64,000 nucleotides of DNA from a virus. The translations under genes and the position numbers were made by a program. Below, one piece after another: positions 6,224-64,000 of this stretch (position 1 is the first letter of the stretch; every line of letters begins with the position of its first letter). A model generated the notes under the pieces. It saw only the letters and a list, made by a program, of their open reading frames with translations. It was not told the origin of the DNA and did no database searches. Location: the IMG/VR virus record IMGVR_UViG_3300047409_000726, positions 16,265 through 80,264 of that record. One strand, written 5' to 3'.

Positions 6224-6374
6224 GCGAGGGCAGTCCTCCTACGGGGGCAAGTTCCCCCCGGCCGTCATTTACCGCGCGAGGTACCAGCGACAGGTTCACG
6301 ACGGACGAGGGATTCATGGAGGTACACGAGAAAAGAAACCGAGTCCAGATATTCTCAGGCTCTAGAGAAAAAAC

Positions 6375-6403
6375 TTGACGACCTGGTCGGGGTAACGGAT
6401 AAC
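6375..6403 (+). promoter_or_regulatory. Sigma70-like promoter for the plus replication operon
   Basis: TTGACG (6375-6380), a 17-bp spacer, then GATAAC (6398-6403). The predicted transcript start is about 7 bp further on, almost at ATG 6412, so the nuclease mRNA would be nearly leaderless. It lies in the divergent gap between the primase (minus) and the nuclease (plus). Confidence 0.55.
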
Positions 6404-6411
6404 GCAGAGGA

Positions 6412-7863
6412 ATGGGTGCGCTCTTCGTTTCGGCGTCGGAGATTGAAGTTTGGGATTTGTGTCCGAGGAAATGGGCGTTTGGTTACATCGAAGGCCGGCG
6501 CTTGCCTCCGAACGAGTCCGCGGCTTTGGGCACTCGAGTTCACGCGATTCTCGAGAAGTGGCTCAAGGAAGGTGCGGCTCCCGACCTGCTAACGAACGAA
6601 GGTGAGATCGCTGCTTCTGGTTTGCATTTTCTTCCACCGCCTCGGACGCCGACGCTCGTCACCGAGGAGAAATTTTCGTTCACGAGCCAGCGTGCTTGGT
6701 ATACGGGTTTTAAGGATTTTCGATACCGCGACGCTAATGGTTTGCTCCACGTGGGGGATCACAAGACAACCAAGGCGTTCACTTGGGCCAAGACATTGGA
6801 CGAGATTCTTTGCCACCCGCAGGCGCTTGTTTACGCAGTCGACGAGTTTTTCCGAAACCCGAACGACGATCGCCTTGCCCTCGATTGGATCTATTACAAA
6901 ACGACGGGTTCGCGGAAAGCAGAGCTTCGTTCTCAGATCGTGACCAAAGATGTGGTTGCCGAGATGTTTTTCGAGCACGTGGATCCGGTTGCGGGGCACA
7001 TCACGCAAATGCACGATGCGCCGCCCGGCACGTCCGCGCTCGAGTTCCCTCCCGACTTCCGAGCGTGCGATGCGTTCGGAGGCTGCGCATTTTTGAGTAT
7101 TTGTAACCCGACCCCAACACAGAGAGTTCAAGCAACCATGACCCAGGCAGGAATGTCCCTCACCGACAAGCTCAAGGCGATGAAGGCGGGCCGAGCGCCG
7201 AGCCCAATCCACCCTCCGGAGGCGTACCAGGCGCCCGCAGGGCCCGCGGCGGCGCCGCAGATGCCCCAAGTGCCGGCGATGCCACCTCAGATGCAGTTCG
7301 CCCTTCCGACGCCTCAGGGCGCGCCTGTGGCGCCGCAGGCGCAGCAACAGTTCTATCCTCCTGTCGAGGGCCAGGCAGCGCCCTTAGCGCTTCAGCCCGT
7401 GTCAGGGCCAGGGATGGCTCCTCAGGTACCTTTCCAACCTGTTGCCGCGCCCCAGCCCCCGCCCGCACCGGCGGCGACGCCCGAGCCCCCGGCGACGCCG
7501 GCCGCTCCCAAGAAGCGCGGACGCCCGAAAGGGTCGACGGCCGAGGCCGCACAGAATGAGGGCGGCTTTACCCTCTACGTCGGCTGCGCGCCGATCGGCA
7601 GTCACGTGACGAACGCTCTCGAGTACGTGAACGCCGCGCACGATCAACTGAGAGCGGCTCGTGGTGTCACCCACTACCGGGAAATGGAGTACGGCAAAGG
7701 TCCGAGCGAGCTCTGCGCGGCGCTCGAGGCGCTCCTCGCGCTCTGTGAAGGGACCCCGAACGCGCCCGCGGGCGACGTCGTGCTCGGCGGCGCGCAGATC
7801 GAGGAAGACACGGCGTCGGTTTGGTTCTCAAAGGCGGCGAAGATCGTGAGGGCGTTTCGGTGA
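6412..7863 (+). CDS. Cas4/RecB-like PD-(D/E)XK exonuclease with Fe-S cysteines and low-complexity extension
   Basis: 483 aa. Residues 5-235 form a RecB/Cas4-type nuclease: SEIEVWDLCPRKW (C17), His44, active site GDHKTT (D116, K118), and a C-terminal cluster C219, C225, C231 that with C17 makes the four-cysteine iron-sulphur signature. Residues about 255-370 are Pro/Gln/Ala-rich and disordered and end in an AT-hook-like KKRGRPKGS. Residues about 380-483 form a separate small domain. Probable 5'-3' end-resecting exonuclease for recombination. It overlaps the next small gene by GTGA. Confidence 0.86.
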   Translation: MGALFVSASEIEVWDLCPRKWAFGYIEGRRLPPNESAALGTRVHAILEKWLKEGAAPDLLTNEGEIAASGLHFLPPPRTPTLVTEEKFSFTSQRAWYTGFKDFRYRDANGLLHVGDHKTTKAFTWAKTLDEILCHPQALVYAVDEFFRNPNDDRLALDWIYYKTTGSRKAELRSQIVTKDVVAEMFFEHVDPVAGHITQMHDAPPGTSALEFPPDFRACDAFGGCAFLSICNPTPTQRVQATMTQAGMSLTDKLKAMKAGRAPSPIHPPEAYQAPAGPAAAPQMPQVPAMPPQMQFALPTPQGAPVAPQAQQQFYPPVEGQAAPLALQPVSGPGMAPQVPFQPVAAPQPPPAPAATPEPPATPAAPKKRGRPKGSTAEAAQNEGGFTLYVGCAPIGSHVTNALEYVNAAHDQLRAARGVTHYREMEYGKGPSELCAALEALLALCEGTPNAPAGDVVLGGAQIEEDTASVWFSKAAKIVRAFR

Positions 7864-46976: not shown

Positions 46977-47627
46977 GTGCGCGTCATAGACCTCACTGGG
47001 CAACGGTTCGGGAGACTTCGCGTTCTCGGGCGAGTCGGTAGTCTACGAGGCGCGTTGTGGGAATGTTTATGCGATCCGGAATTTGGTGGTTGCGGCAACG
47101 TTACGCACGTTTGTTCCGGTGACCTTCGACGCAAACGTCCTGTGCGTTCGTGCGGTTGCAATAGAGGAGGGTACGGAAGATTTTCCGCCACTCATGGGCA
47201 TACGGTGGGAGAGCTTCGACTACACGGCGGATCTCCTGAGTATTGTTGTTGGCAATCGATGCTCCAACGGTGCAAAAACAAAAAAGCCCCAAGCTGGCGG
47301 CTGTACGGAGGGCGCGGTATTCGTGTTCACCAGGCTTGGATAGAAAGTTTTGAAGCGTTCTTGGAGTACATGGGCCCGAGACCGTCGATCGCATATTCTG
47401 TAGATCGGTTTCCGAACCAGAACGGAAACTACGAACCAGGGAACGTGAGATGGGCTACCGCGAAGCAGCAAGGGCGCAATACACGCTCTTGCAAACTAAC
47501 CGAAACGGACGCGGCTTTCGTTCGGCACTGGTGTGCTAGAGGATTCAGGGTCAAAGACATATCTGAAGCGTTCGGCGTTACCACGTCAACCATATCTGCG
47601 GTCAAATCTGGGAAAACTTGGGCATGA
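46977..47627 (+). CDS. HNH-type homing endonuclease-like protein
   Basis: 216 aa, GTG start. GQRFGRLRVLGRV and WECLCDPEFGGCGNVTHVCS are a NUMOD/AP2-like DNA-binding lead. YGGRGIRVHQAWIESFEAFL, YSVDRFPNQNGNYEPGNVRW and ATAKQQGRN are the nuclease core. A C-terminal HTH (VKDISEAFGVTTSTISAVKS) aids site choice. Free-standing mobile gene inserted into the structural operon; its stop overlaps the next ATG. Confidence 0.85.
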   Translation: MRVIDLTGQRFGRLRVLGRVGSLRGALWECLCDPEFGGCGNVTHVCSGDLRRKRPVRSCGCNRGGYGRFSATHGHTVGELRLHGGSPEYCCWQSMLQRCKNKKAPSWRLYGGRGIRVHQAWIESFEAFLEYMGPRPSIAYSVDRFPNQNGNYEPGNVRWATAKQQGRNTRSCKLTETDAAFVRHWCARGFRVKDISEAFGVTTSTISAVKSGKTWA

Positions 47628-48442
47628 AAACCCATACTGTTCAAGCAAATGAAACACCCGCGTCGATTGCAATTTTTTACGCCGGGTGCCCAAAATGTTC
47701 AGCGGATCTCATCAAATCGAATCCGCACAAAGAGTCGATCACGCACCCCAACGGGTACAAAACCTTCTCGTCGTTGTTAGCCGGAGAAAAACTGAACCTT
47801 CCGGAAAAATGGAGCAACGGAGAGTTAGATCGTCGTCCGCCGGTGTACTTCGCGGCATTGCCGTACCACGACGGCGTGACACCTTCGACGCTCGGTGATG
47901 CCGCGGCTGGTGTACTCGCCGACTACGCGACCATCGACGCGATCGTCGCTCAGATCGGTGCACTGCCGCAGATGAACGATCAGGAGTTCGCGACGACCGC
48001 GACGCTCCTCGGCAACATGATCGATCAAGCGGTCACGCAAGCTGGCTCGGTACCTCAAGCACAAGACGCTGGTGCCGCCGCAGAATGGGTGCGAGGACGC
48101 GCGCTCCAGATGGCAGGATCAATCATCAACAACGACACGGCTGCCGTCGCCGAAGCACGATCAGAGATCCAGAACGTGCTGCTCACCGGGCTGGACAATG
48201 CGCGCGGAGCGCTTCAAACGTACTACGCGCAGGTCACTCCGGCGCCTGCGCCAGCGCCGACACCGCATGCGGCGCCGCGTCCGTCGCCGCCGGATCTGCT
48301 TCCGACGCCAACGCCGCCGGCTCCTACGCCCGAACCTGGCCTCAGCACAGGCGATATGTTCGGGTACGGATTGCTCGTTGCGAGCGTCGCGGGCGGAACG
48401 ATCTACCTTGCCACTCGTCCGAGGCGTCGGAGACGTCGATGA
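47624..48442 (+). CDS. LysM-like virion protein with LSTG-TM-polyArg end
   Basis: 272 aa, ATG 47624 (ATGA overlap). Residues 1-65 look LysM-like (THTVQANETPASIAIFYAGC, LLAGEKLNLPEKW). Helical middle (residues about 90-195), Pro/Ala linker, then LSTGDMFGYGLLVASVAGGT, the transmembrane helix, and YLATRPRRRRRR at the C-terminus. First of four proteins with this terminal signal. Probably binds peptidoglycan while anchored in a membrane by its end. Confidence 0.75.
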   Translation: MKTHTVQANETPASIAIFYAGCPKCSADLIKSNPHKESITHPNGYKTFSSLLAGEKLNLPEKWSNGELDRRPPVYFAALPYHDGVTPSTLGDAAAGVLADYATIDAIVAQIGALPQMNDQEFATTATLLGNMIDQAVTQAGSVPQAQDAGAAAEWVRGRALQMAGSIINNDTAAVAEARSEIQNVLLTGLDNARGALQTYYAQVTPAPAPAPTPHAAPRPSPPDLLPTPTPPAPTPEPGLSTGDMFGYGLLVASVAGGTIYLATRPRRRRRR

Positions 48443-50082
48443 TCCAGGACAAGCCTGCGCCGAACGTTCAGACGGATGTGCGTCCTCATCCTGGTGGCAA
48501 GAAGGGCGCGAAACTTTCGCTCGAGGAGGTCGGCAAGCGCGCATGGGCCGCGCGCATGAGCCCGAGGCTTCGTGCGTGGGCGACGCAGGTGCTCGACAAG
48601 GCCGGCGTTTCGCGCGGCACGCGAAGGCAAAAAGCAAAAGCGATCCTCGATGAGTATCGCGCGAAAGTTCCGTACATCGCCGATCCAGTGATGGGCGAGT
48701 TCATCGCGCATCCGGACCAAACACTCTGTCTCGACGAAGCGGGGCTCTGCATCGTGGGCGGCGACTGTTTTCCGGAGGGGACGTTGCTACTGCGGGACGA
48801 TTTCGAATTCGTACCGATCGAGCAGATCAAAAAAGGAGATCGCATCTGGGGGAAGGACAAATGGTCGATCGTCACCGAAAAATGGGCGAAAGGTAAGTTG
48901 CCCGTCGACGCCATCGAACTGTCCACCGGATCGACGATGTATCTGACGCACAATCACAAAGTCTACGTGGGCGCGTGTGAACACGGACGAGGATGCAATT
49001 TGGATCGGTGTTCATACGCCAACAAGCGGAACGTGTTCGATAGAATTTACGTTGAAGACCTGCGCGAAGAAGACGTGCTGCTTCAACCGGAACGCATTTC
49101 GTTCGGCGTCCAAGAAACAGATCCAGACCGCATGTATGTGGAAGCGCTCGCCCTGGCCGACGGTTGGACGAAAGCCAGCAAAAATCCGGATCTGCCTCAC
49201 ATTTGTTTCTACGTCGCGGGCCGAGACGGAATGCGCAAAGAGGCGCAAAAACACGAAGTCGTCAAAATCTGCGAACGATTGGGGATCGAGACGTTGTGGC
49301 ATCCACGATACGTCGTCGTGAAAGATCGAGAGTGGGCGTCGAAAATCGCGGAACTAGGGTCTCGAGCGCGGTTCAAACACCTAGAGACGATCAATTTGAA
49401 CGAGCCTGCGGCCAAAGCTGCGTTGCGCGGCCTAATGGCCGACAGCACGGCGAACACTTCCGGAAGTGCGCGCACGTACTCAACGACTAGCCGAATGATG
49501 ATGCTTCAGGTGCGCGTGCTTCATCGAATGTTCGGCAAGATGACGAGCGTCCGTATGTTGACCCCGGAACAACACGGAGGCGCGGGGAAATTTCCGCTTT
49601 GGCGCGTCGGACAACGAGAAAAGCAAGGACTCTCTGTTGTGGTCCGTTCGATCGAAAGAGCTGTGCGAGAAGTTCCGTGCTGGGACATCTCCACGGATGA
49701 TCACTACATCTACTTGCCTGAACACGACGTAACGGTTTCGAATTGCGACGACGCCGCAGTTACGATTTCGGCGGCAGTGATGTCGATCGGAATTCCTGCG
49801 AAGATCGTAGGGAGCTCGCACCGACCGCCCGCCGACGTGCCGACGCACGTGTACATGGCGTTCGAAGATGATCTCGGTGAGTGGGTTCGCATGGACGGGA
49901 CGACGCGGCTTCCTGTCGGAAAGGCGCCACCGAGACTCCGCGAGTGGTGGATCGAGCCAGGCAAAGACGCGAAAGCGAAAGGCGAAGGGGACTTCGTCGG
50001 GATGAGTGGCACGCTCGAGGGACCGTCATCACGGCACGCGACGATTCGCCTTGCCGATCTGCTCTATCCGACGATTCGCTAG
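48439..50082 (+). CDS. Transglutaminase-like enzyme interrupted by an intein
   Basis: 547 aa, ATGA overlap. N-extein residues 1-109 (basic start, YIADPVMGEFIAHPDQTLCL, IVGGD). Intein residues 110-435. C-extein 436-547 begins CDDAAVTISAAVMSIGIPAK, then PTHVYMAF (H470) and WVRMDGTT (D486), giving the Cys-His-Asp triad of phage transglutaminase-like proteins. Splicing would join GGD to CDD and so create the active site; the mature protein would be 221 aa. Possible capsid cross-linking or peptidoglycan/amide chemistry. Confidence 0.88.
   Translation: MIQDKPAPNVQTDVRPHPGGKKGAKLSLEEVGKRAWAARMSPRLRAWATQVLDKAGVSRGTRRQKAKAILDEYRAKVPYIADPVMGEFIAHPDQTLCLDEAGLCIVGGDCFPEGTLLLRDDFEFVPIEQIKKGDRIWGKDKWSIVTEKWAKGKLPVDAIELSTGSTMYLTHNHKVYVGACEHGRGCNLDRCSYANKRNVFDRIYVEDLREEDVLLQPERISFGVQETDPDRMYVEALALADGWTKASKNPDLPHICFYVAGRDGMRKEAQKHEVVKICERLGIETLWHPRYVVVKDREWASKIAELGSRARFKHLETINLNEPAAKAALRGLMADSTANTSGSARTYSTTSRMMMLQVRVLHRMFGKMTSVRMLTPEQHGGAGKFPLWRVGQREKQGLSVVVRSIERAVREVPCWDISTDDHYIYLPEHDVTVSNCDDAAVTISAAVMSIGIPAKIVGSSHRPPADVPTHVYMAFEDDLGEWVRMDGTTRLPVGKAPPRLREWWIEPGKDAKAKGEGDFVGMSGTLEGPSSRHATIRLADLLYPTIR
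48766..49743 (+). mobile_element. Intein with degenerate LAGLIDADG endonuclease
   Basis: 326 codons, Cys1 (CFPEGTLLL) to Asn326 (TVSN) with Cys+1. Block A: CFPEGT...VPIEQIKKGDRIWG. Block B: STGSTMYLTHNHKVYV (TxxH). LAGLIDADG-like blocks YVEALALADGWT and LRGLMADSTANTSG, then SRMMMLQVRVLHRMFG. Block F: CWDISTDDHYIYLPEHDVTV. The penultimate residue is Ser instead of His, a tolerated variant in some inteins. The insertion point is the catalytic cysteine of the host enzyme. Confidence 0.9.
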
Positions 50083-52144: not shown

Positions 52145-53431
52145 ATGGCCAAGCAAGCAAGAGACAAGAGAAGCATTCTCGGGCGCAAGATTCACGCTTT
52201 CGAACGAGACAACCGGTACGCACGTCTGCCATTCGGTCGCGGTGTCGATCCGACCACCATCGGTGTCGGTGAAGCAATCGGACTCGCCGAGAAGTGCATT
52301 CGATGCAGCTTCGGCAACATCCCCGTGATCGAAGAGGTCGTGTGGACGATCCCCATCCCGCTCACGGCGGAAGAGGCGCTCTCGACCCTCGGTGACGTGA
52401 TCAACCTGCTCTCGGGTTCCTCGAGCGTCCCCGGCGTCGCGTCGATCGACTCGACGTTCCTCATCAACGGCATCCTCCAGACGGACATCCTCGCGCAAGG
52501 CGTGGGCGTGCACGTGTTCTGCGAGCCGCTGTCGTTCTCGACGATCGGCAACGCCTTCACGGCGCCTGCCACGACCGTCGCGCCGCCCCCGAGCCCGGAC
52601 GTCTTCACGACGAACGATCTCGCGAACGGTGCGTTCCCGGATACGGTCGAAGTGGACGGTTCGAACTTCACCCCGGCGGTGTTCGAGTTCGGCGGCCCGG
52701 TGTGGCGCGCGGGCTGGAACTTCATCAACGCCTACCAGTTCCAGTGGAAGACCTCGCAGCGTGAACTCGTGCTGAACGAGCTCGCGGCGGACGTCAGCTA
52801 CTTCGGCTCCTTCGCGGACGCCGAAGCGGCGGGCACGAGCGAGGTTCCCGTCATCGAGTTCGTCGCTCAGGTCAATGCGACCTACCGCTCGAAGGGCTCC
52901 GGGACGATCTTCCTCCCGGCGAACTTCCGCCGCGTGGGAAGCGTTACCACCGCAAGCGTAACCGCAAACATCGGCATCTTCCACCCGACGCGCGATTTCG
53001 ATCTCGCGCCGGTGACCTGGGGCGGTCTCAGGTGGCAGGGCTACGGTTGCCGCGGTCAGATGTACCGCCCGATCGAGAGCCCGTGCTTCCTCGAGCGCGG
53101 CATCCCCATCGGCATGTTCTTCCAGGTGCAAGACGCCGTGCACCAGGCGCTCATGCTCGAAGCCGTCACGATCAACAACGAGCCTCTCGGCACGAACGTC
53201 AGCATCGACGAGAACCTCTCGACCACGACTGGCGGCGGCGCCCAGGTCATGGCCGAGCAGACACTCGACACGGTTCCGCTACTCGCGCCGCAAACCGTCA
53301 ACACCGAGCGTCAGACCTTCAAGGGCGGCATCTTGAAGATCGGCATCAAGATCAAGGGCTGGGAAATGCCCGGCGGCTGGAAGGCGTTCTGCGCCGACAA
53401 CCTGCCGCAGCTCGTTTCGAAGTCTGCCTGA
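52145..53431 (+). CDS. Major virion protein candidate (428 aa, beta-rich)
   Basis: ATG 52145 with ACAGGAGAAAAG. Basic N-terminus (MAKQARDKRSILGRKIHAFE), then an all-beta body with VIEEVVWTIPIPLTAEEALS, WRAGWNFINAYQFQWKTSQR, FVAQVNATYRSKGSGTIFLP, PTRDFDLAPVTWGGLRWQGY, IKIKGWEMPGGW. No HK97 features. Flanked by two strong hairpins with its own ribosome site, as expected for a highly made protein. Best capsid candidate; jelly-roll or spike are the alternatives. Confidence 0.6.
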   Translation: MAKQARDKRSILGRKIHAFERDNRYARLPFGRGVDPTTIGVGEAIGLAEKCIRCSFGNIPVIEEVVWTIPIPLTAEEALSTLGDVINLLSGSSSVPGVASIDSTFLINGILQTDILAQGVGVHVFCEPLSFSTIGNAFTAPATTVAPPPSPDVFTTNDLANGAFPDTVEVDGSNFTPAVFEFGGPVWRAGWNFINAYQFQWKTSQRELVLNELAADVSYFGSFADAEAAGTSEVPVIEFVAQVNATYRSKGSGTIFLPANFRRVGSVTTASVTANIGIFHPTRDFDLAPVTWGGLRWQGYGCRGQMYRPIESPCFLERGIPIGMFFQVQDAVHQALMLEAVTINNEPLGTNVSIDENLSTTTGGGAQVMAEQTLDTVPLLAPQTVNTERQTFKGGILKIGIKIKGWEMPGGWKAFCADNLPQLVSKSA

Positions 53432-53457
53432 TCGAAAAAACGGTCGGTGTAAAGCAG

Positions 53458-53500
53458 CCAGCGGCGTGGCGAAACCAAACGCCGCGCCGCTGGTCGCGTT
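53458..53500 (+). terminator. Strong terminator-like hairpin
   Basis: 14-bp stem CCAGCGGCGTGGCG (53458-53471) / CGCCGCGCCGCTGG (53480-53493) with one mismatch-type pair, 8-nt A-rich loop, then TCGCGTTTT. Probably sets the ratio between the two capsid-type genes. Confidence 0.75.
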
Positions 53501-53531
53501 TTAGGCGAACGAATTTAGGAGAAACGAGCCA

Positions 53532-54137
53532 ATGCAACCGAAGGATCAACAAATCCACAATTTGGCTTTGTACGCGCCCCGGGTAGCTTACGCCATGATG
53601 ATCGGCGTACCCCGCGTGCCGTTCATCGCGGACATCCCGATCCAGTTCTCGTCATCGACGGTGAACGCGCCGCCGGTGGTGCAGAGCTTCGACAACAACC
53701 TCACCCAGGACACGCTGATCGAGCGAGTCTCGTTCAACCTGTTCCAGCAGAACAGCTTCCCGGGAAGCCCCTTCCAGCCTCTCTACTTCAACCAGTTGAA
53801 GCAAAGCGGGCAGACCGGCGTCGGCATCAACATGCAGGTCTACGGAGGCCCGAAGTACGCCGTCAACGACAACTTCACCGACCTCGGAAACCTCATCGAC
53901 GTGTTCGCTGCGACGTGGCCACAGGGATGGCCGCTCTACCGTCAGTCGAACGTGAAGGTCTCCGCGATCCTCACGCAAACACCGGTGAGCGTGCCGTACA
54001 ACATCCTCATCACGTTCATGGGATTCCAGTTCCTAGACAAAACGATAGACGATCTCTCGGACGCCGACGCGCGAGCCAACCTGCGAAAACTCGGCATCAG
54101 CACACCGGATCTCAGCGTGCTTCTCCCGCAGGCTTGA
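53532..54137 (+). CDS. Virion protein candidate (201 aa)
   Basis: Strong TTTAGGAGAAACGAGCCA ribosome site. Beta-rich: AYAMMIGVPRVPFIADIPIQ, SFNLFQQNSFPGSPFQPLYF, QVYGGPKYAVNDNFTDLGNL, NVKVSAILTQTPVSVPYNIL. Next to the 428-aa protein and about half its size, like the small/large capsid pairs of some membrane-containing viruses; could equally be a decoration protein. Confidence 0.6.
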   Translation: MQPKDQQIHNLALYAPRVAYAMMIGVPRVPFIADIPIQFSSSTVNAPPVVQSFDNNLTQDTLIERVSFNLFQQNSFPGSPFQPLYFNQLKQSGQTGVGINMQVYGGPKYAVNDNFTDLGNLIDVFAATWPQGWPLYRQSNVKVSAILTQTPVSVPYNILITFMGFQFLDKTIDDLSDADARANLRKLGISTPDLSVLLPQA

Positions 54138-54150
54138 TCCGCACCACAAA

Positions 54151-55047
54151 ATGGGCGCCAAAACCGACAACGTAATCCGACTCCAAAAACACCCAGACGG
54201 TGTCGCGGCTGGGGTGCGTTCGGTTCTGAACTCGGGTCGATACGAGCTCGTTACAGGAGGGCCGAACGCCGAGTTCGGTTTCATCGGGAGCGACCCTTAC
54301 GAGACCAACTCCGGAACCGGTCTCATCGTCCCCGCGACGCCCAGCGCCTGGATCGACAACGCCCGCTACCTCCTGGTGCTCGCTCGGGCTCGATTCGGTC
54401 ACGGTGAGCAGAGCTCGGACAAGTGCGGCGTGCGCCTCGTCGGCATTCGACAGTACGCCGAGCTCATCGCACGGATCCCTGCGCGTACGTGCCCGCCGCT
54501 GAACACCGAAGTGGGCCCCGCTACCGGTGCGACCGTCGTTTTCCGCAAAGAGATCACGAGCCCGCTCTGGCACTTTCCAGACGGTGACATCTCCTGGCAC
54601 GTGATGGTCGTGAACCGCGTGCAGCGCGACACGCGAAACCCGGCGAACAACGACGGCTTCATTTACCAAGACGCGATCTCGCCGGCACTCCTCTACCAAG
54701 TCGCGGCGCCGTACTCGCCCCCGAACGGCGGGCGTCCTTGGGGGCGTCCCATCGGCGCGTCGCTCGGCAACATGCACGATCTTCGCTACCCGTGGCGCAC
54801 CCCGCGGAGTGAGCGAGTACTCGACATCCCGATCCCCGCGCCGTGCGATGTCATCTTTTTCGCGAGCGTTCGCCAGAACGATCCGCGGGCGACGAATCCG
54901 ACGCTTTGCGACACCGTCGACTGCTCGGCACTCACAGCGCTCGGTCCCGAAGATCAGTTCATGGTCGCGTACAACGAGTTCGCTCAGTACGGCGCCGTCG
55001 CGGGGGCACTCGTGTTCGACGAGAACCTGGGAGAGGACGTGCCATGA
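54151..55047 (+). CDS. Virion protein candidate (298 aa)
   Basis: Beta-rich, no known domain: GTGLIVPATPSAWIDNARYL, VVFRKEITSPLWHFPDGDIS, WHVMVVNRVQRDTRN, ERVLDIPIPAPCDVIFFASV. Six cysteines. Starts 13 bp after the 201-aa gene and is followed by coupled membrane-protein genes. Possible penton, vertex or spike-base protein. Confidence 0.62.
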   Translation: MGAKTDNVIRLQKHPDGVAAGVRSVLNSGRYELVTGGPNAEFGFIGSDPYETNSGTGLIVPATPSAWIDNARYLLVLARARFGHGEQSSDKCGVRLVGIRQYAELIARIPARTCPPLNTEVGPATGATVVFRKEITSPLWHFPDGDISWHVMVVNRVQRDTRNPANNDGFIYQDAISPALLYQVAAPYSPPNGGRPWGRPIGASLGNMHDLRYPWRTPRSERVLDIPIPAPCDVIFFASVRQNDPRATNPTLCDTVDCSALTALGPEDQFMVAYNEFAQYGAVAGALVFDENLGEDVP

Positions 55048-55286: not shown

Positions 55287-55525
55287 TCAACAACGGCCTC
55301 ACCATGATCGCGCTCGCCGGCATCGGCGGCATGATTCCTGGTGCCATCGGCGCGGCCGCCGCCGAAGGAAATCACCCGGTGCTGAGAGGCGCTCTCGTGA
55401 CGGGGATCGCCAACGTTGTTTTGACCGGTCTCTACATCGTTGCGGTCAACACCGCAGACCAGGAGCGGCTCACACAAGGGATGAACGGTCTCTCAGGCGC
55501 TCTCCACAACCCGAGGTTTCCATGA
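55283..55525 (+). CDS. Gly-zipper two-TM protein ending HNPRFP (80 aa)
   Basis: ATGA overlap. GLTMIALAGIGGMIPGAIGA and GALVTGIANVVLTGLYIVAV; C-terminus NGLSGALHNPRFP. Same length, topology and end as the preceding gene, hence a tandem duplication. Confidence 0.72.
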   Translation: MINNGLTMIALAGIGGMIPGAIGAAAAEGNHPVLRGALVTGIANVVLTGLYIVAVNTADQERLTQGMNGLSGALHNPRFP

Positions 55526-55944
55526 TGGCACTAGCCTTCAATGGATTTTCTCTCGGAGAAGATCAGCAAACGTTTCAGGCCGGCGATGTTTGGGTGATTG
55601 ATGTCACGTCCGACAAGCCCGTCACGCCTGAGCAATTTTTCGCTTTTGTCGCGAAGGTTCAGCCCAAAGCGAGTATGCCGATCAAAGTCTTGTCGTTCAT
55701 GCCGATCGATCAGACTCACTTTCAAGCGGTCGTGCAGATGCAATCGACAGGATCTTTCAAAGGCGCCGGTCACACGGATATGGTCGATGGTGTTGTGTTC
55801 ACTGTCACGTCTGCGCACCCGCAATCGGAGACAAGCAAAGGTCTTTCAACCGGCGCAATAGCCGGAATCGTCGCCGCAGGTGCAGCCGCTTTTGGCGGCA
55901 TCGTCTACCTCGCAACTCGCAAACCTAGGAGACGACATCCATGA
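55522..55944 (+). CDS. Virion-type protein with LSTG-TM-basic end (140 aa)
   Basis: ATGA overlap. An alpha/beta N-domain of about 100 aa (FQAGDVWVIDVTSDKPVTPE, HFQAVVQMQSTGSFKGAG), then LSTGAIAGIVAAGAAAFGGI as transmembrane helix and VYLATRKPRRRHP. Shares the terminal signal with 47624, 55941 and 56688. Confidence 0.72.
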   Translation: MMALAFNGFSLGEDQQTFQAGDVWVIDVTSDKPVTPEQFFAFVAKVQPKASMPIKVLSFMPIDQTHFQAVVQMQSTGSFKGAGHTDMVDGVVFTVTSAHPQSETSKGLSTGAIAGIVAAGAAAFGGIVYLATRKPRRRHP

Positions 55945-56660
55945 CCCCAGCGCAAGCAAGCGGACACCCGAATTTCGTCACGGACGTTCCTGTTCAAGGT
56001 CCGGTCGACGAAGGCATGCGCGCGGCGGATTGTTTTCACGCTCAACGAAAGCTACCGGCGCAGCCCGCGTGCGTCGATTGCAAAGGACCAATTCCAATGT
56101 GGGCTCAGCATTCACTCTCGGCAACTTCATCCGGCGCACGCGGCCCCTACTCCGGGATCGGCGAGCGACTCTCGTTCGGCACCGCGGGTGTGAAAGGCTT
56201 CGCTCTCGAAGGCCCAGGCGATCCAGAAGTTTGGAGCCACCTCTCGGCGGCGCAACAGACGTGGATCGGGGACACGCTCTCGAAGCTGAACGGAATCATC
56301 GTGAAGGCCACCGGCACGACGTGCCCGACGTGGGCTCCCGCGATCGATCGCGCGAGCGGTTGCTTTCAGGGTTGGTTCAACGGCGCCAAGTTCGGATTCA
56401 CGAAGGCGAACGGCGCGCCGCTCGTGCTTCGTACCGACGGCGTGTTCGACCAAGACACGCTCGACGCGCTTCGCACCGTCGCAGCGCTGAACCCCAAGAA
56501 CTTTACGACGGCGTTCCCAGGGACCGAGCTACCTGGCACGGGCGTGACTCAGAAGAAGCTTTCCACCGGCGCAATAGCCGGCATCGCGACGGCCGGCGCC
56601 GCGGCGATCGGCACGGTCGCGTACCTCGCCACTCGCAAGAAGAGCCGGAGACGCCGCTAA
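55941..56660 (+). CDS. Peptidoglycan-binding-like protein with LSTG-TM-basic end (239 aa)
   Basis: ATGA overlap. Residues about 60-200 carry WSHLSAAQQTWIGDTLSKLN and LRTDGVFDQDTLDALRTVAA, a PG_binding_1-like unit (DG.f...T..Al). Then LSTGAIAGIATAGAAAIGTV as transmembrane helix and AYLATRKKSRRRR. Probably engages the cell wall during entry while anchored at its end. Confidence 0.74.
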   Translation: MTPAQASGHPNFVTDVPVQGPVDEGMRAADCFHAQRKLPAQPACVDCKGPIPMWAQHSLSATSSGARGPYSGIGERLSFGTAGVKGFALEGPGDPEVWSHLSAAQQTWIGDTLSKLNGIIVKATGTTCPTWAPAIDRASGCFQGWFNGAKFGFTKANGAPLVLRTDGVFDQDTLDALRTVAALNPKNFTTAFPGTELPGTGVTQKKLSTGAIAGIATAGAAAIGTVAYLATRKKSRRRR

Positions 56661-56687
56661 GACCGCAACTCGTAGGAGACGACGAAG

Positions 56688-58247
56688 ATGCTGTATCGAG
56701 TGAAAACCGGCGAGACCCCCGCGATCATCGCGCGCACGTACGGCGTGCCGTTCGATGCACTCATCAACGCCAACCCGAGGAAGCCAACGACCATCGTTTC
56801 CAACGGACGCGGCCCTGTCCGTACTTGGCGGGAGCTTTTGGTGAACGAGGAGATCATCGTTCCGGTTGGCGGACTCGTTGGCGCTCCCGCAGACGACGTC
56901 GTGAGCATTCTCGTTTCGGCGGGCGGTCCGTGTCTCAAAGCAAACGCGGGCTACGTCTGCCAGATCCAGAGCATCCTCGGGCTCAAGGTCGACGGAAAGT
57001 GGGGAAACGACACCGCGGCTGCGGTTCGCGCTCTCGTACCGGGCGCGCCAGGCGCGTGCTCTCCGACGCCGAGCTGGTGGGTGAGAGGTGTGAGCGCATG
57101 TCCCGCGGGCGCCGTCGCTCCGTCGCCCGCGCCTGCTCCGTCGTCCGGCCTCTCCTCGGCGGCAAACGCGGCGCTCGCTGCGCTCAACGCGGATTCGAAC
57201 TACTGCGCAAGCGTCTCGAGAGTCGGATCGGCCGTCAACAGCGCTATCCACAACTTCAAAGCGGCGTGGAACGCTTCGCATCCGTCAACTCCTGTTCCGA
57301 TCGGCACCGGCAAGTACGAGCCGTCCGTTGCAGATGCGCTCTCGACAGCGCTCGGCGGGCTTCCCGTGCCCCCCGGTTGCGGCGCCACGCCTGCGCCTTC
57401 GCCGACTCCGATCGTCACGCCAACACCGACGCCCGCTCCGCGCGGAGCCGTTCCGTCCGCCGTGCTCGCGCTCCTAGGAATCAATCCGTGCGATCCGTCA
57501 AGCGCATCGGACGTGTGCGCGGCTCAGCGCGCGCTCGGTGTGTCTCCAGACGGAAAGTACGGAGTGGACACGGCGACAGCCGCACGTCGAGTGCTCCCGG
57601 AAGCGCCCCCTGGGTGCTCGCCTCGCCCCTCGTGGTGGGCGCCAAAGGGCCAAACGAATTGCGGAGGCGCAGCCGTACCTCCGCCGCAACCGGCACCGAT
57701 CCCGCCGCCGGCTCCGACACCTGGGCCCGCGCCCACGCCGTCACCTACAGCAGCGGCCCCGGCAGCCGTCTTGATGCTCGCCACGATCAATCCCTGCTTG
57801 CAGGCGAACGTCGAAGTGGTCCGGAACGCGCAACGCGCGCTCGGTCTCACACCGGATGGCAAGTACGGAAACGATACGATGAGCGCCGCTCGCCGGCTCG
57901 GCGTGAGTGTGCCGGCGGCTTGTAGCCCCGCGCCCATGTGGTGGGGCGCGAAGGGTGTACCAGCGCCGCCCGGACCGCCGGCACCTGTTCCGGGTCCGAC
58001 GCCAGGCCCTTCTCCGGCACCGGGTCCGATCGTCCAGACAGAGAAGAAGATCTCGACTGGCGCAATCGTCGCGGGCGCGATCGGCGTCGCGGCGCTCGTC
58101 GGGCTTACCGTCGTCGCACTGTCCGGCAAGAAGAAGCATCACCGCCGTACGCGCAAAGGCGCGCACAGGCCGAAGCGGAAATCGCACGGGCATCACCACA
58201 AGCCGCATCACAAGGCCCATCGCAAATCGAAACGGAGAAGCAGATGA
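56688..58247 (+). CDS. LysM plus triple peptidoglycan-binding protein with TM and His/Lys/Arg tail
   Basis: 519 aa. LysM (LYRVKTGETPAIIARTYGVP, 1-60). Three PG_binding_1-like units, ILGLKVDGKWGNDTAAAVRA, ALGVSPDGKYGVDTATAARR and ALGLTPDGKYGNDTMSAARR, each followed by CSPxPxWW, joined by Pro/Ala linkers. Then ISTGAIVAGAIGVAALVGLT as transmembrane helix and a 45-residue tail of Lys, His and Arg. A membrane-anchored wall-binding protein; the tail may touch nucleic acid. Confidence 0.82.
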   Translation: MLYRVKTGETPAIIARTYGVPFDALINANPRKPTTIVSNGRGPVRTWRELLVNEEIIVPVGGLVGAPADDVVSILVSAGGPCLKANAGYVCQIQSILGLKVDGKWGNDTAAAVRALVPGAPGACSPTPSWWVRGVSACPAGAVAPSPAPAPSSGLSSAANAALAALNADSNYCASVSRVGSAVNSAIHNFKAAWNASHPSTPVPIGTGKYEPSVADALSTALGGLPVPPGCGATPAPSPTPIVTPTPTPAPRGAVPSAVLALLGINPCDPSSASDVCAAQRALGVSPDGKYGVDTATAARRVLPEAPPGCSPRPSWWAPKGQTNCGGAAVPPPQPAPIPPPAPTPGPAPTPSPTAAAPAAVLMLATINPCLQANVEVVRNAQRALGLTPDGKYGNDTMSAARRLGVSVPAACSPAPMWWGAKGVPAPPGPPAPVPGPTPGPSPAPGPIVQTEKKISTGAIVAGAIGVAALVGLTVVALSGKKKHHRRTRKGAHRPKRKSHGHHHKPHHKAHRKSKRRSR

Positions 58248-58774
58248 CCGAATTCGTTGGACGCGGACCGGGCGGACGCCCCTACTCTTACGTGGAAACA
58301 CCGAAGGGCGGCGGCTTGGGGGCGCTCGCGCGAAACTTCGCTGTAGGACCGGCAGAAGGTACCGCCGTAACTACCGGCGGCGTCCAAATCCCCTGGGGTA
58401 CGACGGACGTGCCCGGATTCACTTTCGCGGACGTACCGATCACCCCGAGGGTCTCTGGAATCGTTCGCGTTACTGCTGTGGTTTGCGTCGCGAACAGTAC
58501 ATCAAACCCGGCCACGCTTATCGTCGAAGTCCAAGTAGACGGAGTGACACAAATTCGACCTCTGCACGAAGAGGTCACAGTGCCGTTCACCAACGGTGGC
58601 GAAGAAACTAGCGGGTTCGCAGCGGTTCCAATCGAGACCGAGATTCTCGGGTTAGTGCTGGGAACCGCAGTGAACATACAAATCAAAGTAACGGCGCTCA
58701 CAGCCGACGCTCTCACGCTAACCACGAACAACTCGTCGATCGAAGTACAGGAAGTGCTCCCCTCAACCGGCTGA
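58244..58774 (+). CDS. Tagged jelly-roll-like surface protein A (176 aa)
   Basis: ATGA overlap. Tag MTEFVGRGPGGRPYSYVETP, then LARNFAVGP, TTGGVQIPW and a beta-sandwich body (VPITPRVSGIVRVTAVVCVA, VNIQIKVTALTADALTLTTN). Paralogue of 59036 and 59547. Likely trimeric surface knob or fibre. Confidence 0.72.
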   Translation: MTEFVGRGPGGRPYSYVETPKGGGLGALARNFAVGPAEGTAVTTGGVQIPWGTTDVPGFTFADVPITPRVSGIVRVTAVVCVANSTSNPATLIVEVQVDGVTQIRPLHEEVTVPFTNGGEETSGFAAVPIETEILGLVLGTAVNIQIKVTALTADALTLTTNNSSIEVQEVLPSTG

Positions 58775-58785
58775 AGAGAATCAAA

Positions 58786-59034
58786 ATGCAGGTCGTCATC
58801 CCGAAAGAAAAGCTCGAGGCTCTCAAAGCCTGCGACGCTTACATCAAATCACCGGAGTGGAACGGCGAAGCGCTCGTCTACTCCGACTGGGACGCGACGG
58901 TGCGACGTCTGATGTCTACCGGACCTGGGATCACCTTTCTCGGATATCTGGTCAAGAACGAGCTCGTGCCGATGACCAAGGAAGAGTTCAGGCAGGCGCG
59001 AGTGACGCACATTTTCAAGAACGAGGAGCGCTAA
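58786..59034 (+). CDS. Small protein between tagged paralogues (82 aa)
   Basis: Helical (KEKLEALKACDAYIKSPEWN, VRRLMSTGPGITFLGYLVKN). Unknown; possibly a chaperone for the neighbouring surface proteins. Its stop is adjacent to ATG 59036. Confidence 0.62.
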   Translation: MQVVIPKEKLEALKACDAYIKSPEWNGEALVYSDWDATVRRLMSTGPGITFLGYLVKNELVPMTKEEFRQARVTHIFKNEER

Positions 59035-59035
59035 C

Positions 59036-59542
59036 ATGGGCGAGTTCAGAATCGGACGCAGGTTCGCACAGCACACCTACCCCGACACACCAAGAGGGGG
59101 AGGGGCGCTGGCGTTCGCGCGAAACTTCGCGATGGGTCCGGCTACGCCCACCACCATCACGACCGGCGGCGTTCAGGTTCCGTGGGATTTCATCGAAAGC
59201 GGTGCCCCCTCCGGCGTCAACGTGCCGATCACACCGCGTGTCACCGGGCGAATGCTCTTCTCCGGCGTCGTTCAGGTCACGAACAACGACGACGCGCCTG
59301 TGACCGTACAGGTGCAGATTCAAGTGAACGATGCCACGGCACTCGTTCCACTTGTTCAAGAGACGGTCGACGCGAACGGCGAAGCAGCTATCGCTTTCGA
59401 GATTATGTACATCGCGTCGCTTCCGGTCGGCGTCACCGCTCAGATCCAATTACTGGTCACGTCTACAGCAGACGTCGACGTCGTTTTGAGCACGGACAAC
59501 TCAACGCTAGAAATCGAAGAAAAATCGTTCGCGACCGGGTGA
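59036..59542 (+). CDS. Tagged jelly-roll-like surface protein B (168 aa)
   Basis: Tag MGEFRIGRRFAQHTYPDTPR, LARNFAMGP-type segment (FARNFAMGP), TTGGVQVPWDFIESG, then VPITPRVTGRMLFSGVVQVT and STDNSTLEIEEKSF. Strongly similar to 59547-60059. Confidence 0.74.
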   Translation: MGEFRIGRRFAQHTYPDTPRGGGALAFARNFAMGPATPTTITTGGVQVPWDFIESGAPSGVNVPITPRVTGRMLFSGVVQVTNNDDAPVTVQVQIQVNDATALVPLVQETVDANGEAAIAFEIMYIASLPVGVTAQIQLLVTSTADVDVVLSTDNSTLEIEEKSFATG

Positions 59543-59546
59543 ACCC

Positions 59547-60059
59547 ATGGGTGAATTCAGAATCGGCCGCAAATACGCGCACCACTTCTACCCGGACACA
59601 CCACGGGGAGCGGGAGCGCTGTCGCTTGCGCGAAATTTCGCGATGGGCCCTGGGGATGCAACCGACGTCGTCACGTCCGGTGACGGTGGCACTCAGATCC
59701 CTTGGGATTTCATCGAGAGTGATGCCGCCCTAGGCGTCGACGCGCCGATCACCCCAAGAGTCACTGGGCAAATCCTTTTCAAAGGCGTGATCGTTTTCAA
59801 AAACAACTCACTGTCTCCGGTAAACGTGACGGCGCAAGTCGAGGTGAACGACTTGGCAATAGCGCCTCCGGTCGTTGAAGAGACAGTCGCAGCAAACGGG
59901 TTGGCCGCCGTACCTTTCGAAGTGCTCATCGATACCCCACTCGCCCTCGGCGTCACAGCGAACATACAAGTCATCGTGACCGCGTCGATAAACGATGCGA
60001 TCACGCTTACCGTGGACAGTTCGACCATCGAAATCGAAGAAGTTCCGTTTGCGGCGTGA
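59547..60059 (+). CDS. Tagged jelly-roll-like surface protein C (170 aa)
   Basis: Tag MGEFRIGRKYAHHFYPDTPR, LARNFAMGP, IPWDFIESD, then APITPRVTGQILFKGVIVFK and TVDSSTIEIEEVPF. Third of the paralogous set; duplicated tandem array of surface proteins. Confidence 0.74.
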   Translation: MGEFRIGRKYAHHFYPDTPRGAGALSLARNFAMGPGDATDVVTSGDGGTQIPWDFIESDAALGVDAPITPRVTGQILFKGVIVFKNNSLSPVNVTAQVEVNDLAIAPPVVEETVAANGLAAVPFEVLIDTPLALGVTANIQVIVTASINDAITLTVDSSTIEIEEVPFAA

Positions 60060-60077
60060 TGCAAAGGAAACTCGTCA

Positions 60078-60269
60078 ATGCCCAAGAAAATTCACCAGGA
60101 GACGATGTGCTGCGGTAGCAAGCGGTGTCCGACGGTGACGTTGTTCGATGACGGTTCGATGGAGATCTTCGACAACGACGCGCAGAAGAACTCCGTCGGA
60201 AACATCAAGCTCGACCCCGATCAAGTTTCGAGACTCGTCGAGCTTGCGAACAAAAAATCGGCAGAATGA
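60078..60269 (+). CDS. Small Cys-containing protein (63 aa)
   Basis: ETMCCGSKRCPTVTLFDDGS, then GNIKLDPDQVSRLVELANKK. Three cysteines near the start. Unknown. Confidence 0.63.
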   Translation: MPKKIHQETMCCGSKRCPTVTLFDDGSMEIFDNDAQKNSVGNIKLDPDQVSRLVELANKKSAE

Positions 60270-60272
60270 TCC

Positions 60273-60902
60273 ATGAAAACCACAGGCAGAAAATCGCAAG
60301 AGGTCTACCCGGAAAGATCACCCGGAGCTTCGGGATCTGGCGCGCTCGTACGCGTCGGTTACGACGGCACGACCGAAGAGTTCGAAATCGAATCGGGTAA
60401 CGCATACCTCCCGCGAAACGCCGCACTCGATCCGCTCCAGGTGACGTTCCCCTCGTTCACGCTCGGAGACACGCTCGAGGTCGATTTCAGGCTGAACGGC
60501 TCTGTTTCTGCAGAAGAGCCGACCACTGCTCAAATCAACACACAAATCGTGGTGAGTTTGGACGGCGGCGTGACGTTCTACACGCTCACGCCTTCGGACT
60601 CGGCGGTCGGCGTCACCACCGACAGCGGAGCAGACAACGTCATCCTTCTCAGAAGCCTCGATTCTATCCAGATCGTCAATCCAATGCCGGTCGTCGTGAA
60701 CGGCGTTCCGAGCACCATTCCGGTCACGTCTCCGCCCATCGTGCGTGTCATCTACCAGTACGCCGATGACACCATGGTCGTTTTGGTCAACGGCGGCACG
60801 GACGAGCTCACGCTACCGGGCGCTATTCTGAAGTGCAGCGAGCTCTTGGCTGCGTCCGTGTTCCAGGGCCCGCTCGGACAGCTCGCGATCGCCATCGCCT
60901 GA
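60273..60902 (+). CDS. Tagged beta-rich surface protein (209 aa)
   Basis: Diverged tag MKTTGRKSQEVYPERSPGAS, then beta-rich (LQVTFPSFTLGDTLEVDFRL, QIVVSLDGGVTFYTLTPSDS, AIVR-like strand IVRVIYQYADDTMVV). No known fold by eye. Confidence 0.68.
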   Translation: MKTTGRKSQEVYPERSPGASGSGALVRVGYDGTTEEFEIESGNAYLPRNAALDPLQVTFPSFTLGDTLEVDFRLNGSVSAEEPTTAQINTQIVVSLDGGVTFYTLTPSDSAVGVTTDSGADNVILLRSLDSIQIVNPMPVVVNGVPSTIPVTSPPIVRVIYQYADDTMVVLVNGGTDELTLPGAILKCSELLAASVFQGPLGQLAIAIA

Positions 60903-60913
60903 AAGGTCACCAA

Positions 60914-61477
60914 ATGAAACTCATCGGCAGAGGCAGATACGCGACAGAGGCTTACCCGGGAGGATCCTCGGCGGCGGGCGCCGCTTCAGCAGCGCTGCGC
61001 AACCGAAACGTCGCTCTTCCAGGCGCGCTTGCAGTTCCGTTCACGCCCACCAACGCTGTGCTCGCGGCCGTCTTGTTCACACCAAGCGTCAGCGGCGTCA
61101 TTCAAATAGCTGCCTCGGCTTTAGTGGAGAACGGAACAGACGCCGAAACCTACCTGATTGGCATGGAAGTGATACCAGGTACCGGGCTCACCGTTACAGG
61201 CGGCGACATGACCGTCGATGGCTGGGTAGTAGGTACCACATCAGCTCCGGTAGTAGGCGGCGTCACGGGATCGCCTGTGATGGCGCTAGAGGATTTAACG
61301 GCACCGCTCCTCAGTGGTGCAAGCGCAGCGCTGTCGGTATTCGGTATTTCCGACAACGTGTCTCCGTTGCCACTCGGGGTGCCTGTAGTGATCGTCGTCA
61401 TACTAGGCGAGGTTGGTAGCGGCCACGCGATAGCTCAACTTGCGGTTACGAACCTCTCGGTAATGGAACTCCCGTAA
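60914..61477 (+). CDS. Tagged beta-rich surface protein (187 aa)
   Basis: ATG 60914. Tag [19 protein letters not shown], then FTPSVSGVIQIAASALVENG, GVPVVIVVILGEVGSGHAIA and VTNLSVMELP. The V.FTPSVSG strand resembles PITPRVSG of the paralogues 58244-60059. Confidence 0.7.
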   Translation: MKLIGRGRYATEAYPGGSSAAGAASAALRNRNVALPGALAVPFTPTNAVLAAVLFTPSVSGVIQIAASALVENGTDAETYLIGMEVIPGTGLTVTGGDMTVDGWVVGTTSAPVVGGVTGSPVMALEDLTAPLLSGASAALSVFGISDNVSPLPLGVPVVIVVILGEVGSGHAIAQLAVTNLSVMELP

Positions 61478-61481
61478 GTAG

Positions 61482-61766
61482 ATGAATGACCTGCTCCTCA
61501 CTCTTGCCCTCATCGGCGCGACGCTCATCGTCACGCGCGGGACGATTTTTCGTCTACTTCGACGTATCTGGCCAGAGTTTCTCGAGTGCCCGCTCTGTGT
61601 CGGTTTCTGGATCGGCGCGGCAGCAGGCGGAAGCAGTGTCGTGTCGCTCGGCAACGGGAAAATTCTCGACGCCTTCATCGTCGGTTGCGCAACGAGTTTT
61701 CTCTCGATGCTCGCCAACGCTGTGTTGATCAAATTGCTCGACGACAACGAACCCGTCGGGCCGTAG
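61482..61766 (+). CDS. Small membrane protein of DUF1360-like type (94 aa)
   Basis: LLLTLALIGATLIVTRGTIF, ECPLCVGFWIGAAAGGSSVV and VGCATSFLSMLANAVLIKLL: three hydrophobic helices with the ECPxCxGFW signature known from small phage and Bacillus membrane proteins. Function unknown. Confidence 0.75.
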   Translation: MNDLLLTLALIGATLIVTRGTIFRLLRRIWPEFLECPLCVGFWIGAAAGGSSVVSLGNGKILDAFIVGCATSFLSMLANAVLIKLLDDNEPVGP

Positions 61767-61793
61767 ACCCCGAAAGAGGAAGAGAGACATCCC

Positions 61794-63014
61794 ATGGGTA
61801 ACGTTATAGGTAGAGGTCGATACGCGCGTGATACATACCCGGGACCCCCGGCAGCGCCCGCTACTGTCGACGACAGAATCGACGTGCTCACGGCGATTCT
61901 GGAACACAACGTACAGCTTCAAGGTGACGCCACGCAAGTGAGCGGCAGCGTCGTCGCGCTCGACTCGCCGCTTTACACGTTGGTCCCCGGGGTCACTGTC
62001 TTCCCGGGATCTCCGACCGTAGAAGTGACCGGAAGCATAACGGTGCACGGCACTCCTGGCTCGAACGTGCTCTTCGAGCTCGTGCGGGATCGCGGAAGTG
62101 AAGGAGAACTGGTACTCACGCATCAAGATGCCACGATCAGCGGCGCTGCTGGCGATCTGGCGACCATCACGCTCGTGTCGCTAGACGTAAACCTAGAAAA
62201 GGGCTCGACACACACGTGGTCCATACGCGCAACAGGTGCAGCGGCGATCACCTCTCCCGATCCGGCACTCATCCTGGTCGAACAAAAGCCGTCCGGAACC
62301 GCAGTCGTCATTCCTACCCCGCCAACACAAGCGGTTGAGCTGAACACAGCGGCCGACTTCGCTGCATTCGGCGGAACCGGCATCACGACGACGGGCGGCT
62401 CAAGCATCGACGGAGACATCGGCGTGAGTCCCGCCGTCACGTCCGCCGCCATCACGGGCTTCGCACTCGTGCTCGACGGCTCCGGGCAATTCTCTACGTC
62501 CTCGCAGGTGCACCCTAGCGTACCCACGGGACAGCTCGGACACGTATTCGCGTTCAACTACGCGGTGCCTACGCCCGCAAAGGTCAATCAGGCGAACCTC
62601 GACATGATCACGGCGTACAACGACGCCGCTGGGCGCCCTGCGGACACGACAGCGGCAGGCGGTGACATCAGCGCCGACTCGCCGCTCGCAGCAGGGGCGG
62701 TCTACCGCTACACCGGAGCGTCCAGCGTTACGGCAGGAGCTCTGACACTGAACGGCGGACCCACCGACGTCATCATCATTCAAGTGGCCGGTGCGCTCGA
62801 CATTCACCAAGACATTCTGCTCACGGGCGGATTGCTTCCAGAGAACGTCTTCTTCGTTGCGGCAGGACAGGTCACCATCTTCGGCGGCATCACGGTCAAC
62901 GGAGAGTTCTTGGGCCAAACCGGCATCGCCATGCAAGCAGGCACGACACTCAACGGTCGAGCACTCGCTCAGACCGCAGTCACGCTCATCAACAACACGA
63001 TCGTTGAGGCGTGA
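61794..63014 (+). CDS. Tagged surface protein with ice-binding-like (DUF3494) domain
   Basis: 406 aa. Tag MGNVIGRGRYARDTYPGPP, a beta sandwich (residues 25-175), then residues about 185-406 matching the DUF3494/IBP beta-solenoid: ELNTAADFAAFGGTGITTTG, SSIDGDIGVSPAVTSAAITG, ITAYNDAAGRP, AGALTLNGGPTDVIIIQVAG, PENVFFVAAGQVTIFGGITV, QAGTTLNGRALAQTAVTLIN. Known members bind ice or act as adhesins. Here it is probably a rigid receptor-binding or adhesive fibre. Confidence 0.83.
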   Translation: MGNVIGRGRYARDTYPGPPAAPATVDDRIDVLTAILEHNVQLQGDATQVSGSVVALDSPLYTLVPGVTVFPGSPTVEVTGSITVHGTPGSNVLFELVRDRGSEGELVLTHQDATISGAAGDLATITLVSLDVNLEKGSTHTWSIRATGAAAITSPDPALILVEQKPSGTAVVIPTPPTQAVELNTAADFAAFGGTGITTTGGSSIDGDIGVSPAVTSAAITGFALVLDGSGQFSTSSQVHPSVPTGQLGHVFAFNYAVPTPAKVNQANLDMITAYNDAAGRPADTTAAGGDISADSPLAAGAVYRYTGASSVTAGALTLNGGPTDVIIIQVAGALDIHQDILLTGGLLPENVFFVAAGQVTIFGGITVNGEFLGQTGIAMQAGTTLNGRALAQTAVTLINNTIVEA

Positions 63015-63037
63015 AAAGACTGAAAGCGTAACAAACC

Positions 63038-63925
63038 ATGTCTAAAATCATTGGAAGAGGACGTTACGCGACCGATACGTACCCGCAACCGTCTTTCGGA
63101 TCTGGATCTGGCACCGGTACGACGGGCTCAACGGGCCCAACCGGTCTACAAGGAGTCGGGATCGGATTAACGGGGCCGACAGGGCCAACAGGACGAACCG
63201 GAGCAAGCGGCCCCACTGGTGTCGCCGGAGCTGCAACGAACACCGGTGCGACCGGTGTAACGGGACCGAGCGGGCCCAGCGGGAGCACCGGAGCAACAGG
63301 ACCTACTGGCCCCACCGGCGTTTCTGGTTCTGCAACCAACACCGGCGCCACAGGCCCAACGGGATCAAGTGGTCCTACTGGTACCGCTGGTGGTGCAGCC
63401 AACACCGGCGCCACAGGTCCGACTGGACCAAGCCCAGGATCAACCGGACCGACAGGAAGCACGGGACCGACAGGATCGACGGGCAGCACGGGCCCAACAG
63501 GCTCAACAGGCCCGACAGGGCGAACCGGATCAACGGGACCCACCGGTGCGGCATCGACAGTCACGGGACCCACAGGTCCAACGGTTTTTGCGACAGAGAC
63601 GCGCGCCAACAAAAACATGGCTGCGTCTACGACGGTCAATGACGGCGATCTCGCTTGCGCCACGGCCGTCGCGTTCACTCCCGCCGCCTCTTCTACGAAC
63701 GGCGGCTACATAGGCGTCGGCATAAACCCTGCGTTCCCGTACAACGTCGGCGACGGAACGAAAGTAAACGTCGACTGCTACTTCTCCGGTGACGCCGGAG
63801 CTACAGCGCGCTCGCTGAAAGACGTCATCGCGGGAGATTTGCTGTTTTGGAATCAGAGCGTTGCCGGGTTCAACCTGGACGCAGCCACCGACGTGGTCAG
63901 TTTCTTCTATTCGGTAATCGTGTAA
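63038..63925 (+). CDS. Tagged collagen-like fibre protein (295 aa)
   Basis: Tag [19 protein letters not shown]. Residues about 25-185 are Gly-X-Y repeats, mostly GPTGxTG, with NTGATG interruptions. The C-terminal 105 residues form a globular trimer-type domain ([60 protein letters not shown]), like the knob of bacterial collagen-like proteins. Long thin fibre, likely for adsorption. Confidence 0.85.
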
Positions 63926-63929
63926 AAAA

Positions 63930-64000
63930 GTGGCTTCTATCCAGCCGAAGCAAATCCGCGCATCCCGACTGAAACAAGTCGGGGTGGCGGCCGGCATGAT
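63930..64000 (+). CDS. N-terminus of next virion-region gene (partial)
   Basis: GTG 63930, five bases after the collagen-like stop, open to the window edge. MASIQPKQIRASRLKQVGVA looks like a normal protein start without the IGRGRYA tag. Could be another surface protein; too short to say. Confidence 0.45.
   Translation, partial: MASIQPKQIRASRLKQVGVAAGM

Follow-up and report, generated by a model that had tools for sequence, protein, structure and literature searches.

The product of gene g116 is probably a virion-surface adhesin, in which an N-terminal peptide (tag A) docks to the particle, a middle region forms a stalk or base, and a DUF3494 (ice-binding-like) domain is the exposed head for a repetitive-surface ligand, possibly ice. 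The gene lies within the window (the whole 64,000-nucleotide stretch of viral DNA analysed), and the open reading frame originally predicted here is borne out. Its parts and its upstream signal are as follows.

61776..61786, + strand: purine-rich ribosome-binding-like stretch GAGGAAGAGAG, 5′ of g116, from sequence
61794..63014, + strand: g116, tagged DUF3494 protein, 406 aa, ATG start
61794..61841, + strand: N-terminal tag A, MGNVIGRGRYARDTYP, residues 1–16, an N-terminus common to 37 proteins
61842..62318, + strand: g116 middle region, residues 17–175, beta-rich in a low-confidence model
62319..63011, + strand: DUF3494 beta-solenoid, residues 176–406 (Pfam match 193–403), from Pfam, phmmer and the model
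62571–62633, + strand: bracing helix, residues 260–280, from the AlphaFold model

The C-terminal half of g116 is a genuine DUF3494 domain, as judged from profile matches and a predicted fold. The original prediction had reported a long match to the DUF3494 pattern and proposed a profile search as a check; in that search PF11999 (Ice_binding, DUF3494) matches residues 193–403 with E=4.6e-45 and 154.3 bits (curated cut-off 28.7), spanning practically the whole profile (3–207 of 208). All of the motifs quoted in support are present: GDIGVSP (207–213), AYNDAAGR (274–281), ENVFFVAAGQV (350–360) and LNGRALAQTAVTL (386–398). At E<0.001, phmmer retrieves 24 DUF3494 proteins of solved structure, with 9lhr scoring best (~1e-35). 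An AlphaFold model, for which g116 was aligned with viral and bacterial homologues, has block-mean pLDDT values of 76–98 (mostly >90) for residues 181–406, including the bracing helix, and shows the discontinuous triangular beta-solenoid of the family with its long helix. This part of the model superimposes on DUF3494 crystal structures with Z scores of 28–35, and the best 25 structural matches listed belong to DUF3494 without exception, almost every one being described as an ice-binding or antifreeze protein. The closest is the ice-binding protein of Candidatus Cryosericum odellii (9li0; Z 35.1, rmsd 1.2 Å over 218 residues, 44% identity), for which no paper was found. A chance resemblance or a different beta-solenoid family is ruled out by the profile and structural matches.

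The N-terminal portion of g116 is less readily classified. Residues 17–175, a separate beta-rich region with low model confidence that the original prediction had omitted, have no homologue among the viral loci compared, and no fold is claimed for them, as the best structural matches to the low-confidence model are weak (WSSV VP37, Z 5.2; adaptin ear, Z 4.2). The protein contains no cysteines and has no visible signal peptide; the top 19-residue hydrophobic stretch within the first 60 residues scores 0.58 (Kyte-Doolittle). A PHROGs search with the 406-aa protein returns no family at E≤1, hence no tail fibre or receptor-binding protein profile, and an Rfam scan of positions 58000–64000 returns no family.

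Tag A constitutes the first 16 residues of g116 (IGRGRYARDTYP) and is widespread among relatives of the virus. The consensus M-x-[RHY]-[IV]-[IV]-G-[RK]-G-R-Y-A-x-E-T-Y-P occurs in 37 proteins with 23 unrelated body families (single linkage, blastp E<1e-4, collagen masked), such that an N-terminal module common to variable heads is present. It starts 2–3 residues after the Met in 34 of the 34 cases with an in-frame Met, and has no match in the 219,726 residues of the bacterial control loci. The bodies include collagen-like proteins, a family of 390–412 aa, smaller proteins and one DUF3494 domain; Collagen and Ice_binding are the sole families recognised by Pfam in 35 of the tagged proteins. Seven have collagen-like repeats, which are common in virus fibres. 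What had been called a phage docking tag is a real N-terminal sequence common to many proteins, although we infer, rather than observe, its docking to the virion. The tagged array is directly downstream of a block of conserved genes that includes the capsid candidates. The block (g91–g102, g106 and g107) is retained in most loci, whereas the array is variable among relatives. The array and its neighbours in the window are listed below.

58244..58774, + strand: g108, 176 aa, paralogue of g110 and g111
59036..59542, + strand: g110, 168 aa, tag-like N-terminus RIGRRFAQHTYPDTPRG, paralogue of g111 and g108
59547..60059, + strand: g111, 170 aa, tag-like N-terminus RIGRKYAHHFYPDTPRG, from sequence comparison
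60273..60902, + strand: g113, 209 aa, degenerate tag MKTTGRKSQEVYPE; the homologue in locus L007 bears full tag A
60914..61477, + strand: g114, tag-A protein, 187 aa
61482..61766, + strand: g115, small membrane-type protein, 94 aa, slot marker, in relatives conserved immediately 5′ of the gene for tag B or DUF3494
63038..63925, + strand: g117, tag-A protein with collagen triple-helix repeats (PF01391 E=2e-15)

The g117 protein also matches tail-fibre PHROGs, through its collagen-like repeats.

The gene slot occupied by g116 has a defined order in most of the relatives compared: g115, then tag B or a DUF3494 gene, then a tag-A protein. Tag B is a conserved basic protein of 67–80 aa (MRRKLKNLKNKxGHSENGAPRQ...SRPRDQAISLR) that stands alone in most relatives; it is encoded immediately after g115 in loci L006, L007, L009, L012, L013, L014, L023, L027 and L030, among others. 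Two relatives, L002 and L032, have a tag-B protein that runs on into DUF3494 in a slot equal to that of g116, whereas the window has tag A, the middle region and DUF3494. Tag B is apparently missing from the window's virus, judging by its sequence; the best profile match in the record (E=0.099) lies in another frame of g116 itself and is not significant. Because L002 and L032 join DUF3494 to tag B and g116 joins it to tag A, the gene comparison indicates that the DUF3494 head has been moved between the two platforms. In L002, an HNH/AP2-type homing-endonuclease-like open reading frame (recognised by eye; 2698–3465, - strand) separates the g115 homologue from the DUF3494 gene.

The DUF3494 domains of L002 and L032 share 74% and 68% identity with that of the window, and the three form a single clade (support 100/99), whereas identity to the bacterial DUF3494 sequences found is at most ~47%. 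The dN/dS values among the three copies are about 0.15–0.27, indicating purifying selection at the sequence level. At the DNA level the tag-B versions resemble the window from approximately codon 175 onwards, and a single acquisition of DUF3494 followed by a swap of the N-terminal platform would be the simplest account. The domain is seen in 3 of 29 records of the virus family (the window and 2 of 28 relatives, several records being fragments), and is therefore not essential to the family.

A second and unrelated group of viruses also encodes DUF3494. Contig L074 (IMGVR_UViG_3300015195_000008; 50,270 bases) encodes a portal and an adaptor of SU10 type together with a phage capsid protein, and a 541-aa protein encoded between the capsid and adaptor genes (5761–7386) contains DUF3494 at residues 92–275 (PF11999 E=1.8e-56); another contig, L075, has an identical domain. 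The L074 domain occupies a separate tree branch with Chloroflexota- and Actinomycetota-type sequences, and by its phylogenetic position the SU10-like phage acquired DUF3494 separately from the window's family. Like g116 the L074 protein is a virus-encoded DUF3494 protein, in this case within a head gene module, but it differs in its branch, in having an internal insertion and in carrying neither tag A nor tag B. The presence of DUF3494 near capsid genes in two unrelated virus groups favours display over secretion.

The INPHARED phages yielded no relative of g116, of a flavobacterial DUF3494 protein or of the SU10-like 541-aa protein, and the sole significant viral matches in BFVD are Hyperionvirus DUF3494 proteins with 16–19% identity. 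In PMC11515562, PF11999 genes of Arctic marine vOTUs are interpreted as auxiliary metabolic genes for host cryoprotection, and S-SKS1 is named as associated with viral PF11999 homologues; our search of S-SKS1 yielded no PF11999 match, and the controls were likewise without a match. The IMG/VR scans were based on short peptide patterns, and further viral DUF3494 copies may exist.

The IMG/VR record containing the window is 80,264 bases long and has a 127-base direct repeat at its ends (window 63874–64000, equal to positions 1–127 of L003), so that it closes to a circle of ~80.1 kb and the gene following the collagen open reading frame is the 1002-aa gene at the start of the record. The virus encodes a family A DNA polymerase, a Prim-Pol, Thy1 and a deoxynucleotide monophosphate kinase, together with several peptidoglycan-active proteins (GH25, SLT and LysM/PG-binding); this gene content makes a bacterial host likely. 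Terminase, portal and tail families do not appear among the matches listed for 87 record proteins against PHROGs and Pfam, with 25 families shown in each list, and targeted profile searches with PF03237, PF04860 and PF01580 gave no terminase, portal or tail match. The marker used for finding relatives is as follows.

52145..53431, + strand: g100, candidate major capsid protein, 428 aa

The putative capsid role of g100 derives from its conservation and position. It has relatives at 27 IMG/VR loci (64–76% identity, mean column identity 69%), and no match in profile searches of Pfam, PHROG and PDB; its predicted model has a pLDDT of 41, and no fold is claimed. A scan of GTDB genomes gave no relative, so no host is named. 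The segment at 52145–55047, and the record as a whole, possibly belong to an undescribed structural lineage, with kin of g100 on contigs of up to 125 kb. Elsewhere in the window (47624–48442 and 55522–58247) there are conserved proteins, some of them LysM/PG-binding, that end in a hydrophobic segment and a strongly basic tail (e.g. KLSTGAIAGIATAGAAAIGTVAYLATRKKSRRRR); these C-termini look as if they were membrane-anchored, in the virion or the host. In a conserved 547-aa protein (48439–50082), a Hint-like stretch (PF01079 E=7e-4) that may be an intein precedes or interrupts a transglutaminase-like core (PF01841 E=5e-5).

We infer a virion location for g116 from its tag, from synteny and from the separate SU10-like example. 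Of the possible roles, the one originally proposed, receptor binding or environmental adhesion, has the best support, and the evidence points neither way on ice. That g116 is a true ice-binding protein, with a b-face that binds ice so that particles adsorb to it or survive in freezing soil water, is possible but unlikely. The structural neighbours speak for it, including the origin of the top solved match in Candidatus Cryosericum odellii. Against it, DUF3494 is also present in habitats where ice is scarce. The face itself is ambiguous. Seven b-face rows (SSID, TGIT, TAVT, TGIA, GQVT, GALD and SSVT) were assigned from the DSSP strands of the model and from the sequence register of known proteins, and their three candidate face positions are 86% T/S/A/G/N compared with 51% across the whole domain. 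For the regular Thr/Ser face, suggested earlier as a diagnostic feature, the signs are mixed: exact T-A/G-x-T/N rows number two of the seven (TGIT and TAVT), and D206, D336 and Q359 lie on the candidate face. In the second column the residues are S,G,A,G,Q,A,S, whereas alanine down this column is tied to strong ice binding, with S/G/T possibly weaker (PMC12337378). The candidate face, which retains an ice-binding-like character, is almost identical in L002 and L032; its features as a whole would suit either a weak affinity for ice or a different repetitive ligand.

Two further roles have less to recommend them. An auxiliary gene whose product is released and protects the infected host from freezing would agree with the earlier proposal for Arctic marine viruses (PMC11515562), but is very improbable: g116 is without a signal-peptide-like stretch, its tag is common to collagen-like fibres, the gene is within a tagged array of surface type, and the L002 and L032 copies have another conserved viral module as N-terminus. 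We give equally little credence to a ligand-free solenoid that serves just as a rigid spacer or as decoration. The stability of beta-solenoids and the many bodies that the family swaps behind tag A speak for it, but the face residues and loops are strongly conserved between the viral copies, and an unrelated phage gained the same domain separately.

As a surface adhesin, g116 would be fixed to a common particle site by tag A as the docking peptide, with the beta-rich middle region as stalk or base and the C-terminal solenoid as the exposed binding head. The head would attach to a repetitive surface, with a polymer or particle of the host envelope or the environment as the likeliest candidate and ice as a possible one, and would thereby keep the virion near or on its target. 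The g116 slot would act as a module-exchange site, with the same head on tag B in two relatives and on tag A plus a stalk here.

This proposed arrangement has parallels in known systems. The solved DUF3494 ice-binding proteins (FfIBP 4nu2, TisAFP 3vn3/5b5h, LeIBP 3uyu and Candidatus Cryosericum 9li0) have the same fold and bracing helix as the g116 model (Z 31–35, rmsd 1.2–1.6 Å, 35–44% identity), whereas g116 is viral and tag-borne, lacks a recognisable secretion signal and is less regular on its candidate ice face. In bacteria, DUF3494 ice adhesins are tethered by Ig-like or collagen-like repeats in a range of listed architectures (PMC9957290). Such adhesins (e.g. Shewanella frigidimarina SfIBP, 6bg8) resemble g116 in having a DUF3494 head on a longer surface protein, but have a cell-envelope anchor in place of its virus-specific peptide. 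The N-terminal tail of the adenovirus fibre is a short conserved peptide on variable fibres; the likeness to tag A, whose docking is putative, is in working only, and no sequence relation is claimed. The Arctic vOTUs and Hyperionvirus similarly have DUF3494 encoded by a virus, but the Hyperionvirus proteins are distant and the portions of PMC11515562 available describe no common docking tag for the Arctic genes. In the literature searched, itself a partial collection, no report was found of DUF3494 on a common virion tag.

In its most far-reaching form, the proposal would be of a lineage of large dsDNA bacterial viruses, lacking any recognisable terminase, portal or tail gene, that mounts swappable heads on a universal docking peptide, one of them a working ice-binding solenoid partitioning virions to ice or freezing interfaces, with SU10-like phages reaching the same display separately; we regard this full combination as improbable. 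Viral DUF3494 has so far been read as a host-protecting auxiliary gene, whereas that of g116 is on modules apparently built for virion display. Tag A provides a means to recognise surface proteins in a virus family for whose structural genes the databases used contain no matching family. The exchange between two platforms and the parallel case of an unrelated tailed phage open the virion display of an ice-binding-like adhesin to direct testing, and suggest that viruses display DUF3494 as an interchangeable adhesive head.
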